Below are positions 46,120-52,280 of a stretch of 64,000 nt of DNA, piece by piece. Under the pieces are notes generated by a model. The model was not told the DNA's origin, ran no database searches, and was given only the letters and a program-made list of their open reading frames with translations. Origin of the DNA: Pleurocapsa sp. PCC 7319 (lineage in GTDB: Bacteria; Cyanobacteriota; Cyanobacteriia; Cyanobacteriales; Xenococcaceae); the NCBI RefSeq assembly GCF_000332195.1, contig NZ_KB235922.1, forward strand, positions 3,631,322 to 3,695,321, given 5' to 3'. Position numbers and translations under genes: made by a program. Position 1 is the first letter of the stretch, and every line of letters begins with the position of its first letter.

Positions 46120-48159
46120 ATGGCTACAAATTTTGAGATCAACGCTTTTATTCCTGAAGATTGGTATGGAGGATACAAACTAGAAGTAGATTTAACAGCA
46201 GAATCCGATATCAGTAACTGGAAACTAGACTTCAACCTCCCCTACACAATTAGAGAAGTCTATGGAGTACAGTTAACCGACAATGGCGACGGTAACTATA
46301 GTATTGAAGGTCTAAACAGCCAAACAAATTTACAACAAGGACAGTCTCTCAAAGCGATCTTCATTATCGATGAGGATCAACAAGAGGCAATAATCCCCGA
46401 ATTCATCGATTCAGTTTCAATTGACTCTTTAGACACCCCAGAATCAGTAGTTGAAGAAGAACCTGTCGACAACTCAGAACCAGTAGTTGTAGAAGAACCT
46501 GTCGACAACTCAGAACCAGTAGTTGTAGAAGAACCTGTCGATAACTCAGAACCAGTAGTTGTAGAAGAACCTGTCGATAACTCAGAACCAGTAGTTGTAG
46601 AAGAACCTGTCGACAACTCAGAACCAGTAGTTGTAGAAGAACCTGTCGACAACTCAGAACCAGTAGTTGTAGAAGAACCTGTCGACAACTCAGAACCAGT
46701 AGTTGTAGAAGAACTAAATCAATTTCCCTTTCCTGATAACCAAGGCGAATCAGTGGGGCAACAAGGTCAATTTGCCTATGGTGAAGCCTTACAAAAGAAT
46801 TTCCTCTTTTACGAAGCCAATCGTTCTGGGGACTTAGGACCTGATAACCGTCTTGAATGGCGACAAGATTCTACCCTCAATGATGGTAGTACTGTCGGTC
46901 GCGACCTAGAAGGAGGTTATTTCGATGCGGGAGACCATGTCAAATTCGGTCAACCTATGGCAGCTTCTGTCAATATGCTGGCATGGGGTGGGGTGGAATA
47001 CAAACAAGCCTACCAACAATCTGGACAATTCGATGAATTACTTGATGCAGTCAAGTGGGGCACTGACTATTTTCTCAAAGCTCACGAAACTGATAGCAAT
47101 GGTAATACCAGTAAATTGTGGGTACAGGTTGGAGAAGGAGGTAGTAATAACGATCATGGTTATTGGGGCGCACCTGAGACTGTAGAAGCTAATACTACCC
47201 GAAATGCTTTTGCTATCGATCCTGCTAATCCTGGCAGTGATGTAGCTGCTTCTACCTCTAGTGCTTTTGCTGCTGCGTCTATGCTTTTCCGAGGTGTTGA
47301 TGATACCTATGCCGACAAGTTGTTAAAGAATGCCGAGCAACTATATGAGTTTGCTGAAACCTATCAAGGCAAATATTCCGATTCTGTCAGTGCAGCCAAT
47401 CCTTATTACACTAGTTGGAGTGGCTACGGGGATGAGTTGGCTTCTGGGGCAGCTTGGTTACACAAGGCTACGGGAGAAGAGTCCTATCTTACTAAAGCTG
47501 AAAACTATTTTAAGAATAATATTGGTGGACTAGGAGACTGGTCTTGGGCGGTAGATGACCATTCCTATAGCGCAGCAGTGATTTTGGCACAAGAAAGTGA
47601 TGATCCTTTCTTCCAAGATCAAGTTGAAGGCTGGTTAGATAGATGGATTAATGGCGAAGGTGCGATTAACTATACTTCTGGGGGATTTGCTCATCGTGCC
47701 ACCTGGGGTTCTATTCCTGTTACCAGTGCCACAGCATTTTTGGCAGAACTATATAACGACACAGTTAAAGAGGATAGTCGCTATAGTGATTTTGCCAATA
47801 ACCAAGTGGATTATATTTTGGGTGATAATCCCCTCAACTATAGTTATATGATTGGTTTTGGTGATAACTATCCTCAGCGTCCCCACCATCGGGGTTCTGC
47901 TCCTAACTTAGGTGGTCAACCCACAGTAGTACAGGAAAATATTCTCTATGGTGCAGTTGTAGGCGGTCCCGATGCTCCAGATGATTATGCGCATAATGAT
48001 AGACGTGATGACTGGGTAACTAATGAAGTGGGAATTAGCTACAATGCACCTTTCGCTTCTGCTCTGATTCAACAGTATGACGATTCCGGTGGAGATGCGC
48101 TTTCTAATTCGGAATTAGATCAGTTGATTGGGGTTGATGCCAATGGCGTTGGTTTTTAA
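46120..48159 (+). CDS. Glycoside hydrolase family 9 cellulase with N-terminal CBM2-like domain and repeat linker
   Basis: Predicted beta-1,4-glucanase of 679 residues. Residues 1-85 resemble a family 2 carbohydrate-binding module (GGYKLEVDLTAESDISNWKL). Residues ~115-198 are seven copies of PVDNSEPVVVEE. From ~215 the GH9 barrel follows with YGEALQKNFLFYEANRSG, GGYFDAGDHVKFGQPMA (the Asp pair that activates water), PHHRGSAP and the catalytic Glu region DDWVTNEVGISYNAPF. No signal peptide is visible, so export may use a non-Sec route or a C-terminal signal. A terminator follows the stop. Confidence 0.88.
   Translation: MATNFEINAFIPEDWYGGYKLEVDLTAESDISNWKLDFNLPYTIREVYGVQLTDNGDGNYSIEGLNSQTNLQQGQSLKAIFIIDEDQQEAIIPEFIDSVSIDSLDTPESVVEEEPVDNSEPVVVEEPVDNSEPVVVEEPVDNSEPVVVEEPVDNSEPVVVEEPVDNSEPVVVEEPVDNSEPVVVEEPVDNSEPVVVEELNQFPFPDNQGESVGQQGQFAYGEALQKNFLFYEANRSGDLGPDNRLEWRQDSTLNDGSTVGRDLEGGYFDAGDHVKFGQPMAASVNMLAWGGVEYKQAYQQSGQFDELLDAVKWGTDYFLKAHETDSNGNTSKLWVQVGEGGSNNDHGYWGAPETVEANTTRNAFAIDPANPGSDVAASTSSAFAAASMLFRGVDDTYADKLLKNAEQLYEFAETYQGKYSDSVSAANPYYTSWSGYGDELASGAAWLHKATGEESYLTKAENYFKNNIGGLGDWSWAVDDHSYSAAVILAQESDDPFFQDQVEGWLDRWINGEGAINYTSGGFAHRATWGSIPVTSATAFLAELYNDTVKEDSRYSDFANNQVDYILGDNPLNYSYMIGFGDNYPQRPHHRGSAPNLGGQPTVVQENILYGAVVGGPDAPDDYAHNDRRDDWVTNEVGISYNAPFASALIQQYDDSGGDALSNSELDQLIGVDANGVGF
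46462..46713 (+). repeat. Seven tandem copies of a 36-bp coding repeat in the cellulase linker
   Basis: Unit CCTGTCGACAACTCAGAACC continued by AGTAGTTGTAGAAGAA, exactly 36 bp each. Copies are identical except that two use GAT for GAC. This near-identity at DNA level shows very recent amplification or homogenisation. Confidence 0.97.
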
Positions 48160-48279: not shown

Positions 48280-49197
48280 ATGATTTCGGTTATTTATTCT
48301 TCAGAGTTTTTAGAGCATAATACAGGCTATGGTCATCCTGAAAAAGCTAAACGTTTGACAGCAATTGTGGAAGCTTTAAAAGGAGTAGATTGGCAAGAGC
48401 AGATTGATTGGCAGTTGCCTTCACCTGTAGAACAAAGAAATGTACTAGCTCATATCCAAAAAGTTCATACCTCTGAACATATAGAGCGGATTAAACGAGT
48501 CGCCAGTGAAGGTGGTGGTTATATAGATCTGGATACACCAATTTCTGAACGTAGTTACGATGTGGCACTGTTAGCAGTCAGTGCTTGGCTAGATGGAGTA
48601 GACCAGGTTTTAGATCATCATCGCCCTGCTTTTGTGTTGGCTCGTCCTCCGGGACATCATGCCACTAGAGATACTGCTATGGGATTTTGTTTATTTTCCA
48701 ATGCAGCGATCGCAGCCAATTATGCTTTAACTAAACCTAAGATTAAGCGAGTCGCTATCTTAGACTGGGATGTCCATCATGGCAACGGAACCGAAGAGAT
48801 TGTTAGGGATAACCCAAAGATTGCCTATTGTTCGCTACATCAGCATCCCTGCTATCCAGGTACAGGTGGTAATCAGAACGATCATGGTAAATACCAGAAT
48901 ATCCTTAATTTACCAATGACTGCAGGAAGTAATATTACAGATTACCAACAAGTTTTTGAACAAGAAGTAATGCCCTTTTTACAAAATTGGCAACCAGACT
49001 TCTTAATTGTTAGCGCTGGTTATGATGCTAATGATGATGATCCCCTAGCCGCTATTTCCTTACAACCTAATGATTACGATTTATTAACGAAGTATGTACT
49101 ACAAATTACCAGATACCCATTATTTGGTTTAGAAGGCGGTTATCATTTAAGAGCTTTAGCTAATTCAGCAGTTGCCACTTTAAACAGTTGTCTGTAA
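48280..49197 (+). CDS. Histone-deacetylase-superfamily (acetylpolyamine/acetoin-type) deacetylase
   Basis: Zinc amidohydrolase of 305 residues. The signatures are GYGHPEKAKRLTAIVEAL, RPPGHHATRDTAMGFCLFSN (His pair), AILDWDVHHGNGTEEI (zinc Asp/His) and GLEGGYHL (transition-state Tyr at the end of the pocket). Bacterial members remove acetyl groups from polyamines or proteins; the exact substrate is not evident. Full length, monocistronic. Confidence 0.9.
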   Translation: MISVIYSSEFLEHNTGYGHPEKAKRLTAIVEALKGVDWQEQIDWQLPSPVEQRNVLAHIQKVHTSEHIERIKRVASEGGGYIDLDTPISERSYDVALLAVSAWLDGVDQVLDHHRPAFVLARPPGHHATRDTAMGFCLFSNAAIAANYALTKPKIKRVAILDWDVHHGNGTEEIVRDNPKIAYCSLHQHPCYPGTGGNQNDHGKYQNILNLPMTAGSNITDYQQVFEQEVMPFLQNWQPDFLIVSAGYDANDDDPLAAISLQPNDYDLLTKYVLQITRYPLFGLEGGYHLRALANSAVATLNSCL

Positions 49198-49326: not shown

Positions 49327-50724
49327 ATGAATATTGTTACTTCTGAACTATCTTTGTACCAGTTGACTCAGGATTCAGACGATCCTCTTGTTTCTAAATC
49401 TATTGGCGCAGAGACGCTCAAATCTTATGTAAGTTCTATTATCGATCTAGTAATTGAAAAACAGATTCCGGCAACGATTTGGGTTAAATTACCCCAGACG
49501 AAAAGTTGGTTAAATCAGGTACACAAATTACAGCAAGAGGGCAATGCCGAGCGTATTTACTTATGTAGTAATAACAAAGATAATCCGGCTCTATCGGTTT
49601 TAGATCGTACTTCTACTAAAACACCAATTTTGCCAATTGGACTCCACCAAAGTCCTCTTTTACAACGAGAATCTTTTTTAATTATTTTGTCTGCCGATTT
49701 TTGTAGCTTGATATTAGCTCAATGGCAAAAAGGCAAAATATGTATTGAATCTTCGGGAAAAAGACTACAGCAACCATATTTAGAAATGGTTTCTAGCTTT
49801 GAACCTCAGAAAATCATTCACATCTTATCAAAGATGCAAGAAAATATAATATCTGGTGTTGGCATTCCTATCGAGAAAGACTTGTCATTTCCCCAAAATT
49901 TAGCCACAAAATCTGATTTCTTGGGAGATTTAATTCTCAAACAAGTAGAGTCTGGTGAAATATTACAAAAGAGAGTTGATTCTTTATCTAAAACTCGTCA
50001 TAACTCCGACAAAAACTTGACTATGCTGGGATTACAAGACGATTTTTTTAATAATCTTGTCAGGGAATTGCGATCGCCTATTACCCACATGAAAACGGCT
50101 TTAAGTCTTCTAGAATCAAAACAAATCAAAGGAGAACAACGCCAGCGTTATTTGAAGATGGTCAGCGATGAATGCGATCGGCAAAATTCTCTAGTGGGTG
50201 GTTTATTAGAGCTATTGCAGTTAGAAATTCCCGCCGAGGCGGAATATATCTATTTGGAAGATTTAGTACCTGGAATAGTCAGTACATATCAACCGTTAGC
50301 GAAAGAAAAAGAAATTCAGCTAGGCTATACAATTCCTAAAGCTCTTCCCCCTATTGCTTGCCCCCAAACTTGGTTTAGACAAATTATTATCAATCTTCTC
50401 AATAATAGTTTGCGTTTTACTCCTCCTCAGGGAAGAGTTTTTGTCCAAGCAGTATTTAAAGATGGATATATTGAAATTTCAGTTACAGATACAGGGATAG
50501 GTATCGCTACCAAAGAAATCAACAAAATTTTTGATGGTTTTTATCGTACCAAAACAACTACCAATGAGAAGGCAACTGGTGCAGGTTTAGGATTAACTCT
50601 GGTGCGACAGCTAATCCAAAGGTGCGGAGGATCGATTTCTGTCAGTAGTAAGGTGGGGAAAGGAACAAGTTTTAAAATATTATTGCCCGCTGTACCAGCA
50701 GAATTAATTGATGGTAAGCCCTAA
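49327..50724 (+). CDS. Histidine-kinase-like protein lacking the phospho-accepting His
   Basis: 465 residues. The first ~200 resemble a DICT-type cyanobacterial sensory domain (IPATIWVKLPQTKSWLNQVH, then SFLIILSADFCSLILAQW). The dimerisation helix reads NLVRELRSPITHMKTAL where active kinases have SHELRTPL: Arg246 (codon AGG at 50062) replaces the His. The catalytic domain looks intact: N box IIINLLNNSLRFTP, G1 VTDTGIGIA, G2 GAGLGLTLVRQL. It should bind ATP but cannot autophosphorylate at the normal site. Its 3' end overlaps the opposing kinase gene by four bases. Confidence 0.85.
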   Translation: MNIVTSELSLYQLTQDSDDPLVSKSIGAETLKSYVSSIIDLVIEKQIPATIWVKLPQTKSWLNQVHKLQQEGNAERIYLCSNNKDNPALSVLDRTSTKTPILPIGLHQSPLLQRESFLIILSADFCSLILAQWQKGKICIESSGKRLQQPYLEMVSSFEPQKIIHILSKMQENIISGVGIPIEKDLSFPQNLATKSDFLGDLILKQVESGEILQKRVDSLSKTRHNSDKNLTMLGLQDDFFNNLVRELRSPITHMKTALSLLESKQIKGEQRQRYLKMVSDECDRQNSLVGGLLELLQLEIPAEAEYIYLEDLVPGIVSTYQPLAKEKEIQLGYTIPKALPPIACPQTWFRQIIINLLNNSLRFTPPQGRVFVQAVFKDGYIEISVTDTGIGIATKEINKIFDGFYRTKTTTNEKATGAGLGLTLVRQLIQRCGGSISVSSKVGKGTSFKILLPAVPAELIDGKP

Positions 50725-52280
50725 ACTTCTAGACAGGCATTATTTACCTGGTTAGAGTTTTTACTAGAGTTGCCTAAAGGAAGAAAGATAGTTAATTCTT
50801 TGCCCTGCTCTTGTCTTTGTCTAACGATAAGTTTGCCTCCTAAAGCCTGGAAAATATTTTTGGTTACGTCTAAATTAAGACTGAGACATCCTGTTGCTGG
50901 TTGAAAAGTGAGTAATTGACCTAAGGATTTCAAAGGATTATCAAAATTACTAGCTTGAGAAAGAACTTGTAATTTCAGCTGGTTTCCTGCCGTAGAAACT
51001 TTGACGTTGATGTGTCCCCCAGTAGTTAAACTACGGGTACAACTTTCCATTAATCCAGTTAAAACAGTATCCAACATAGCAGGATCGCTAACTACCTGGG
51101 GTAACTTTTGAGGCAAGGTAAAATCCAACTCCACATTGCGTCTTCGTGCCTTTTCTTGCCATCGAGGAATACTCTGCCGAAAAGCTCGATCCAAAGAAAA
51201 AGGAACTAACTCTACTGGCTTAGCAGTGGGGGCAGTAGACTCCAATTCAGCAGCTCGAAAAATTAATTCCATGCGCTCTATTTGTTCAGTACACTCGCGG
51301 TCTATAGTTTGTAAACGCTTCACGACGTTAGGTTTAAAATCCTGTTGACGCTTGAGTAGGAGCTTGGTGAGAGTACGAATAGTTGTTAAAGGTGTCCTTA
51401 CCTCATGGGTAAGTGCTTGTAATAACTCCATTTCTAGATGACTGGTAGCTCGTTGAGGCGTAAAACCTTTTGGGAAATCCGCTTTATCTGCTTCTGAATT
51501 AGCAGCAACGGTTTCTACCTTACGAGTTGGAGCAACAGCCATAGAAGTTAAATCAGGTAAATTTTGCAATAAATAGCGACTAAAGCTAGTGACTAAGCGA
51601 TAATCGGGATTTTGTGGTGCAAATTGCTCTACTAAGTTATCTAGCTGTTCTAAATGATGATAGTTGGCGATCACCAGACGCGATCGCAAAGTTGCCCATA
51701 CTTCACCAATAACTTGCGGATCGAAGGAAAAATGAAATTTAGCACTACCTTGGCGATCCTGTCCTAAAACCATGACTAAGCCAAAGTTGGCAGTTAAAAC
51801 TAGACAAAATTGTTCTTCAGCAATTGGATCTTGAGGAATTAAAGGTAATCTAATGACTGGAGCAACCTTTTTACTTGCTTGACTTGATGCCATTGAGTAA
51901 CGACAGGGCATCAGTGCATTGACATTAAATGCGTCACTAGTAAATACTGCACTTTGGAAACAGGAAATTAAATCAGAATTGCTTAATAATGGAACAGGAG
52001 CAGAAAAAATAAGTCCCTGTTTTTCTGAAGAAATAGTTGTTTGATTTTGCTCAATTTCTGATAAAAGTAGTTTTTCTACTGACGCGATCGCACCACACCA
52101 TTCTCTCTGCGCCTTAAGCTCTGCAAGACGATTTTTTTCACTATGACATTTAGATTCTGAATTAGTTTTAGTTACCTGTTGGACTGATAAATTAACTTCA
52201 GGCTTATTAGAATCCAGCTCAGCTTGTAACTCTCGGTTCAGAACATCACTTAAATTTTGCAGTAACCAGTTTGGCACCAC
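50721..52280 (-). CDS. Histidine-kinase-like protein with intact H box but degenerate ATP-binding domain
   Basis: 519 residues. A segment of the sensory part (FCLVLTANFGLVMVLGQDRQ) resembles the corresponding part of the opposing gene's product. The H box LLQALTHEVRTPLTTIRTL keeps His292. In the catalytic domain the N box position reads LTGLMESCTRSL without the Asn, the G1 position reads LSQASNFDN instead of DxGxG, and the G2 position is ATGCLSLNL. ATP binding is therefore unlikely. It looks like a phospho-acceptor that needs another protein's catalytic domain. Confidence 0.85.
   Translation of the reverse strand: MVPNWLLQNLSDVLNRELQAELDSNKPEVNLSVQQVTKTNSESKCHSEKNRLAELKAQREWCGAIASVEKLLLSEIEQNQTTISSEKQGLIFSAPVPLLSNSDLISCFQSAVFTSDAFNVNALMPCRYSMASSQASKKVAPVIRLPLIPQDPIAEEQFCLVLTANFGLVMVLGQDRQGSAKFHFSFDPQVIGEVWATLRSRLVIANYHHLEQLDNLVEQFAPQNPDYRLVTSFSRYLLQNLPDLTSMAVAPTRKVETVAANSEADKADFPKGFTPQRATSHLEMELLQALTHEVRTPLTTIRTLTKLLLKRQQDFKPNVVKRLQTIDRECTEQIERMELIFRAAELESTAPTAKPVELVPFSLDRAFRQSIPRWQEKARRRNVELDFTLPQKLPQVVSDPAMLDTVLTGLMESCTRSLTTGGHINVKVSTAGNQLKLQVLSQASNFDNPLKSLGQLLTFQPATGCLSLNLDVTKNIFQALGGKLIVRQRQEQGKELTIFLPLGNSSKNSNQVNNACLEV

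Follow-up and report, generated by a model that had tools for sequence, protein, structure and literature searches.

Convergent genes for two kinase-like proteins with complementary catalytic defects in cyanobacteria

Introduction

Heterodimeric sensor kinases have been described as rare (PMC12675982). A candidate from cyanobacteria is considered here: two adjacent genes, called P1 and P2, in a stretch of 64,000 nucleotides (the window) from Pleurocapsa sp. PCC 7319 (positions 3,631,322 to 3,695,321 of contig NZ_KB235922.1, assembly GCF_000332195.1). Both encode proteins built like histidine kinases, P1 with a complete ATP site and no phospho-accepting histidine, P2 with the histidine and no ATP motifs. 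A first-pass annotation, made from the sequence of the window alone, had suggested that one may phosphorylate the other.

There are precedents for such a division of labor. FasB and FasC of group A Streptococcus are, like P1 and P2, two kinase-like proteins, one contributing a catalytic domain and the other a histidine next to a dispensable kinase domain (PMC12675982). FasC is a proposed pseudokinase whose His246 is thought to be phosphorylated by the kinase domain of FasB, and two-hybrid data are consistent with a heterodimer (PMC12675982). The likeness has its limits. FasB and FasC sit in the membrane, and their genes are transcribed together with that of a regulator (PMC12675982), whereas the genes of P1 and P2 converge and are flanked in the window by a gene of the histone-deacetylase family and an ion channel gene, with no regulator. 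Moreover, FasB still has candidate histidines in its dimerization and phosphotransfer (DHp) domain (PMC12675982), while P1 lacks the histidine in 122 of 127 orthologues.

The phospho-histidine and ATP functions also lie on two proteins, as in P1 and P2, in CheA3/CheA4 of Rhodobacter sphaeroides (PMC3591291) and Hik36/Hik43 of Synechocystis (PMC7656254). CheA3 is a phosphatase as well, which theory ties to a switch-like response, and the same source uses HExxT as a phosphatase signature and notes HisKA proteins without HATPase as possible split kinases (PMC3591291). CheA-class pairs, however, miss whole domains, whereas P1 and P2 keep the full HisKA-type architecture, DHp followed by catalytic (CA) domain, and lose only motifs.

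Then there are the degenerate kinases. The dimeric phosphotransferases ChpT, Spo0B, and PhyT combine a DHp histidine with a degenerate CA domain, as P2 does (PMC5898713, PMC3433190). P2 differs from them in its DICT-like N-terminus. None of the three is known to have a dedicated ATP-competent, histidine-less partner gene. DivL and RetS have the kinase fold with altered catalytic residues and partner another kinase, but they modulate that kinase and do not supply its missing half (DivL, PMC9491836; RetS, PMC12675982). ChrS and HrrS form heterodimers of native kinases, not of a truncated pseudokinase (PMC9491836).

The literature searched gave no description of the P1-P2 pair, and the available parts of PMC7063779, PMC9260433, PMC2663038, PMC13421787, and PMC9953108 hold nothing on it. 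The split kinases that were found described are of the CheA type; between P1 and P2 the division of labor shows in residues that hardly vary across many genera, and a model built on it is directly testable with two purified proteins.

Results

Two proteins, each with half of a kinase's catalytic residues

The features of the two genes, in coordinates of the window, are these:

49327..50724, plus strand: P1, an open reading frame of 465 amino acids; DICT sensor, HisKA without the phospho-histidine, intact HATPase_c
49348..49722, plus strand: DICT domain of P1, residues 8-132 (Pfam PF10069, E 7e-24)
50062..50064, plus strand: AGG codon of P1, Arg246 at the phospho-histidine position (not His in 122/127 orthologues)
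50404..50406, plus strand: Asn360 of the N box of P1 (invariant, 116/116)
50488..50502, plus strand: G1 box of P1, D388-x-G390-x-G392 (D388, G390, and G392 invariant, 116/116)
50578..50592, plus strand: G2 box of P1, G418-A-G420-L-G422 (G420 and G422 invariant, 116/116; G418 111/116)
50721..50724, both strands: four-base overlap of the stop codons, TAA on the plus strand (50722-50724) and TAG on the minus strand (50721-50723)
50721..52280, minus strand: P2, 519 amino acids; an N-terminus that resembles DICT but has diverged, then HisKA with His292 and an HATPase_c fold that lacks the ATP motifs
50772..51086, minus strand: degenerate catalytic domain of P2, residues 399-503, with no N, G1, or G2 box (HATPase_c below cut-off; G1/G2 patterns in 0/138; fold kept in the predicted model)
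51405..51407, minus strand: CAT codon of P2, His292, the phospho-acceptor in HEVRTP (HExxT; His in 137/137 alignable unique cores)
51666..51893, minus strand: residues 130-205 of P2, in its N-terminal part; homology with the P1 DICT domain, C-terminal half (hhalign E 5e-6)

In P1, Arg246 sits in LVRELRSPITHMK, where histidine kinases have H, as the codon itself attests. The translation holds all of the ATP motifs: LLNNSL in the N box, DTGIGI, and GAGLGL. Pfam recognizes three domains, DICT, HisKA, and HATPase_c, the first of them at 84.6 bits against a cut-off of 23.8, which places P1 within family PF10069. P2 is the opposite case. Its His292 lies in QALTHEVRTPL, but GLMESCTR stands at the place of the N box and TGCLSLNL at that of G2, and DxGxG is missing. 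HisKA is matched by P2 with E 2e-7, HATPase_c only below threshold (19.1 bits against a cut-off of 26.4), and DICT not at all up to E 10; its likeness to DICT appears only through a profile-profile match to P1.

The two genes converge, and their 3' ends share four bases. The first-pass annotation had described the residues and the overlap in just this way, and the reading of codons and motifs bears it out, adding that P2 has lost the G2 box along with N and G1.

Judged by the marks of an orthodox HisKA kinase, each protein fails on one count: P1 on the phospho-accepting histidine (Arg in the window, some other non-histidine residue in most orthologues), P2 on the ATP motifs. Judged by sequence motifs, the two together have what marks CheA3/CheA4 and FasB/FasC, histidine and ATP functions on two different proteins. 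P2 by itself has a DHp histidine, no ATP motifs, and, in the predicted model, the catalytic fold, which makes it a candidate for the ChpT and Spo0B type. Chains of DivL, GacS, and RetS come first among the structures that match the P2 model, though HK853, an ordinary kinase, is within 1 Z of them. ChpT and Spo0B are not named among the 50 structure matches listed, an absence that proves nothing. These structure searches barely probed the N-terminal domains of either protein.

The defects are conserved

Among close relatives, none of 30 P1 proteins (that of the window and 29 orthologues) has a histidine at the phospho-acceptor position, and 30 P2 proteins all have it, without ATP motifs. One alignment was confined to unique proteins with full cores (116 of P1 and 99 of P2). 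Its 116 P1 proteins agree without exception at N360, D388, G390, G392, G420, and G422, and E247, next to the missing histidine, is found in 115. A larger set of P2 comprised 138 unique cores from 152 loci, after removal of rows with more than 60 core gaps and of identical cores. His292 and Thr296 are present in 137 of 137 cores with an aligned residue and Glu293 in 135, while no core of the 138 matches either glycine pattern, taken as D(T/N/S)GxG for G1 and GxG(L/I/V/F/M) for G2 in fixed windows. L219 and L220, both of family f36, have a P2 H box that reads H-G or H-S in place of H-E, having lost the residue after the phospho-histidine.

Position 246 of P1 was followed on a tree of 127 rows, incomplete and duplicate ones having been removed; column 246 was itself part of the alignment that made the tree, column 247 being the one omitted, and the codon tally lacks 12 entries whose indices did not agree. 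The residue is Gln in 97 rows, Arg in 18, His in five, Glu in four, Ala in two, and Thr in one. The histidines amount to two changes on the tree, both nested among rows with Gln, and since Gln is one base away from His, such a reversion is easy. The five proteins (L145, L148, L152, L162, and L065) come from a clade of four, three Fischerella and one Westiellopsis, and from one Nostoc-like genome, L065; they may autophosphorylate. Could another histidine of P1 serve as the acceptor? His254, eight residues on, was considered and rejected, as just 76 of the 127 rows have it.

The same residues are thus kept and the same residues lost, almost invariantly, in the orthologues of each gene, and for this reason I take P1 and P2 for kept designs and not for decaying genes: the defects are complementary and, judged from the alignments, old and maintained across many families. 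That the ATP site of P1 is invariant while position 246 varies freely among Gln, Arg, Glu, Ala, and Thr implies selection for the use of ATP and none for an acceptor of P1's own. An invariant ATP site without its own histidine is what a kinase acting in trans would be expected to look like, and this is the strongest single argument for such a role, one internal to P1. The observation holds, and it reaches further than a single genome could have revealed.

How often would a kinase look like P1 by accident? H boxes were aligned from 82 regions of the window's own genome, drawn from 81 HisKA matches and the surrounding loci, and 78 of them have the histidine. The remaining four are P1 (Arg), L324 and L343 (both Gln, with ATP domains that are degenerate by inspection), and L331 (Tyr, in a partial box), and P1 is the only one of these with a complete ATP site. 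The combination found in P1 is not one that chance supplies. L324 (C7:4431800-4434982), with its Gln and degenerate ATP domain, is another kinase-like pseudokinase; presumably it has a GAF-like N-terminus, and it is possibly Hik2-like. L331 (C7:4901315-4904881) is an open frame of 418 residues that holds two HisKA boxes in tandem, and the Tyr is in the first.

P1 and P2 share their domains by descent

The first-pass annotation had pointed to similar N-terminal segments in the two proteins. Profile-profile alignment superposes both of the segments it quoted, with E 5e-6 and a probability of 86% (2e-5 and 76% when query and target are swapped). Matched as whole proteins, P1 and P2 align at 99% over a span that takes in the latter half of the DICT domain and all that follows up to the C-terminus, and in the predicted models (mean predicted local distance difference test score 85.7 for P1 and 82.0 for P2) the strands and helices of the N-terminal part come, by inspection, in matching order. 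Both domains of P1 and P2, by these profile comparisons, are of common descent. A motif E-C-x-x-Q in the second DHp helix of both proteins was considered as a special link and dropped, because two other kinases of the same genome carry CxxQ at the same place.

Distribution in the phylum

A diverse profile, with E no higher than 1e-30, found P2 in 184 of 386 genomes of the phylum; all but three of the 184 have a single match. By class, this makes 184 of 186 genomes inside the window's class and 0 of 200 outside it, the 200 genomes without P2 (18 listed, 182 not) being taken as outside from the kinship order of the listing, in which every genome with a match is of the class or nearer. The only two genomes sampled in the class without P2 are G134 and G282, of family f39, which gave only matches to the kinase part, at 58 and 54 bits.

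P1 is much less common. It was found in 46 of the 386 genomes, as 46 matches of at least 329 bits, followed by a gap down to matches of the kinase part at 198 bits or less; 75 genomes passed the threshold of that profile search, and a separate search also gave 46 of 386. Each of the 46 has P2 as well. One might want to read this as proof of partnership, but that use of the phylogenetic profile was rejected: with P2 so common, it is nearly uninformative that P1 implies P2.

According to PMC4751278, which refers to a survey by Ashby and Houmard (2006), three kinases, Hik2 among them, are conserved in every cyanobacterium. Given its distribution and an ATP domain that lies below the Pfam cut-off, P2 is a candidate for a universal signaling component.

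Neighborhood of P1

Eighty named P1 loci were surveyed, and for 46 the flanking DNA extended 8 kb or more in each direction. A Mur ligase gene lies upstream in 39 (Mur ligase domains by Pfam; the gene is read as murE), P2 is a neighbor in 29 (downstream and convergent in 28), and a gene of the histone-deacetylase family lies upstream in 16. No other downstream neighbor approaches P2 in frequency in the flanks available, the next cluster having six loci. In 19 of the 46 genomes with P1, belonging to eight families, the two genes are within 5 kb of one another, and in all 19 they are convergent, no other orientation being seen at that distance.

Discussion

A proposed two-protein kinase

I propose that P2 is the ancient half of a histidine kinase, acceptor and perhaps phosphatase, and that P1 is an accessory, ATP-binding half that phosphorylates it in trans; on the sequence evidence I regard the proposal as evenly poised. 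P2 is the obvious acceptor of P1 because the motifs of the two are complementary and the N-terminal domain is common to both. I infer a heterodimer, trans-phosphorylation, phosphatase action, and possibly a response regulator as partner, which would fit together as follows. His292 in the DHp domain of P2 would take a phosphoryl group and pass it on, P2 itself being presumably unable to use ATP. The DHp helices of P1, lacking the histidine, and its DICT-type N-terminus would pair with those of P2, and the intact ATP domain of P1 would then phosphorylate His292. With P1 present and stimulated, P2 would act as phosphodonor. In species where P1 is absent or has been lost, P2 would act as phosphatase or be fed by another kinase. 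The HExxT motif of P2, together with its life without P1, suggests that alone it may be a phosphatase for a response regulator or a phosphotransfer protein, to which P1 adds kinase activity. CheA3 and CheA4 are described in such terms (PMC3591291), and what is proposed for FasB and FasC comes near to it (PMC12675982). Should P2 prove to be a phosphatase by itself and P1:P2 a kinase, the theory of CheA3/CheA4 predicts switch-like behavior (PMC3591291).

Several observations weigh against so close a tie. Of the 184 genomes with P2, 138 have no P1, and the histidine of P2 is intact in every member read from a P1-less genome, including 20 of 20 in family f33, so P1 is neither P2's only source of phosphate nor its reason for being. 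A survey of five P2-only genomes (three of family f41) for a histidine-less replacement of P1 found none among 30 kinase loci, which came from an HATPase search and are not all of the kinases there; 21 of the loci matched the H-box pattern, every one with His, and nine did not match. Five orthologues of P1 have the histidine. In 27 of the 46 genomes with both genes, the two do not lie together within 5 kb: in 14 they are on different contigs, and in 13 they are further apart on a single one.

The neighborhood itself may be passive. Family f33, placed with named Nostocaceae by a kinase tree, includes 22 genomes with P2 and without P1, in 20 of which the surroundings of P2 could be read, though some stretches were ended by contig ends. 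In ten of the 20, P2 and the Mur ligase gene converge, and in three of the ten about 46-91 bases lie between them. My reading is that P1 dropped out of an ancestral murE-P1-P2 block. The persistence of the convergence between Mur ligase and P2 shows that P2 can do without P1 and that the closeness of P1 to P2 may, at least in part, be passive synteny. Coevolution does not help. In a mirror tree of 19 loci with P1, P2, and MurE, the partial correlation of P1 with P2 given MurE is 0.57 (1 of 2000 permutations as high), but the control, P2 with MurE given P1, is 0.70, so the signal is unspecific. Nor does a quick kinase tree resolve P1 and P2 as sisters; it sorts the rows into P1, P2, and other kinases, each a group apart. 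That tree had 91 rows (26 of 129 P1, 41 of 123 P2, and 24 others), with P2 on a long branch that makes its placement unsure, and four of 256 rows had been lost for an unmatched H-box pattern, the P1 of L010 (with Gln) and three P2 fragments.

An obligate partnership of P1 and P2 is weakened by these results. What the first-pass annotation proposed survives on the strength of old, conserved, and complementary defects, related N-termini, and recurrent convergence; it does not survive as an exclusive arrangement, for two of the outcomes that it had itself named as refuting, a P1 with a normal histidine and a P2 living alone, were in part observed. It is plausible that the two are partners, with P2 by far the more widespread and P1 an optional complement, absent from many relatives.

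Alternatives

The strongest alternative is that P2 stands alone, a phosphotransferase or response-regulator phosphatase derived from a dead kinase in the manner of ChpT, Spo0B, and PhyT, and that P1 is a mere neighbor in the old murE-P1-P2 block, with a separate job. Degenerate kinases that act as phosphotransferases are documented (PMC5898713, PMC3433190), and much that has been said of P2 would follow: its near universality (184 of 186 against the 46 genomes of P1), the invariant His and Thr of HExxT without ATP motifs, its persistence in P1-less genomes whose Mur ligase gene is still in place. The idea leaves three things unexplained, however: the perfect ATP site of a P1 with no histidine, the N-terminus of the same kind in both proteins, and why the only ATP-competent HisKA protein without the histidine found in the genome should adjoin P2. 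With these set against it, I think it somewhat unlikely, though to be taken seriously.

P1 may instead have a target other than P2, acting as an ATP-binding pseudokinase or rewired kinase, either an allosteric partner like DivL or a kinase of Ser/Thr type like the chloroplast sensor kinase of plants. The latter lost its histidine and has been described as having a Ser/Thr-like mechanism (PMC4751278), a conserved ATP site in a protein without the histidine would suit either role, and P1 forms a group in the tree separate from P2. But the loci offer little for P1 to act upon. Besides P2, its commonest neighbors are the Mur ligase (39/80) and the histone-deacetylase-family gene (16/80), and no other signaling partner stands out among the clusters shown. 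I consider this alternative improbable. That the genes are decaying or misread paralogues without joint function, as catalytic motifs missing from each might suggest, is already contradicted by complementary and nearly invariant retention and loss of the same residues over many families, and hardly deserves credence.

The proposal that P1 phosphorylates P2 invites a bolder one, which I offer tentatively, as possible and still rather doubtful. P2 would be a core signaling protein of oxygenic cyanobacteria that has gone unrecognized, a phospho-histidine hub, its ATP site dead already in the ancestor of the class, and P1 a later catalytic half, repeatedly lost, that makes of it a switch-like two-protein kinase. 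This would be a HisKA-type kinase split by complementary loss of motifs, not by loss of domains, and kept over the radiation of a photosynthetic class.

Other observations on the neighboring genes

The histone-deacetylase-family gene of the window (48280-49197) lies directly upstream of P1, as it does in many relatives of the same family; in many other families that place belongs to the Mur ligase gene. In six loci of the small-genome family f41, read as picocyanobacteria (L208, L209, L210, L214, L216, and L217), the order is mrp, a rodA-like gene, P2, psaD, and anthranilate synthase I, with PsaD, FTSW_RODA_SPOVE, and the rest confirmed by Pfam for L208 only. A cell-wall gene thus recurs, rodA-like beside P2 in f41 and Mur ligase beside P1.

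One contig (L193) labeled as Tatlockia sp., a metagenome-assembled genome, carries a convergent cyanobacterial P1-P2 pair whose P1 groups with a Chroococcus sequence, probably a binning error. Finally, the window encodes at 46120-48159 a protein of glycosyl hydrolase family 9 with about eight near-identical repeats of the EEPVDNSEPVV type between its N-terminal part and its catalytic domain.

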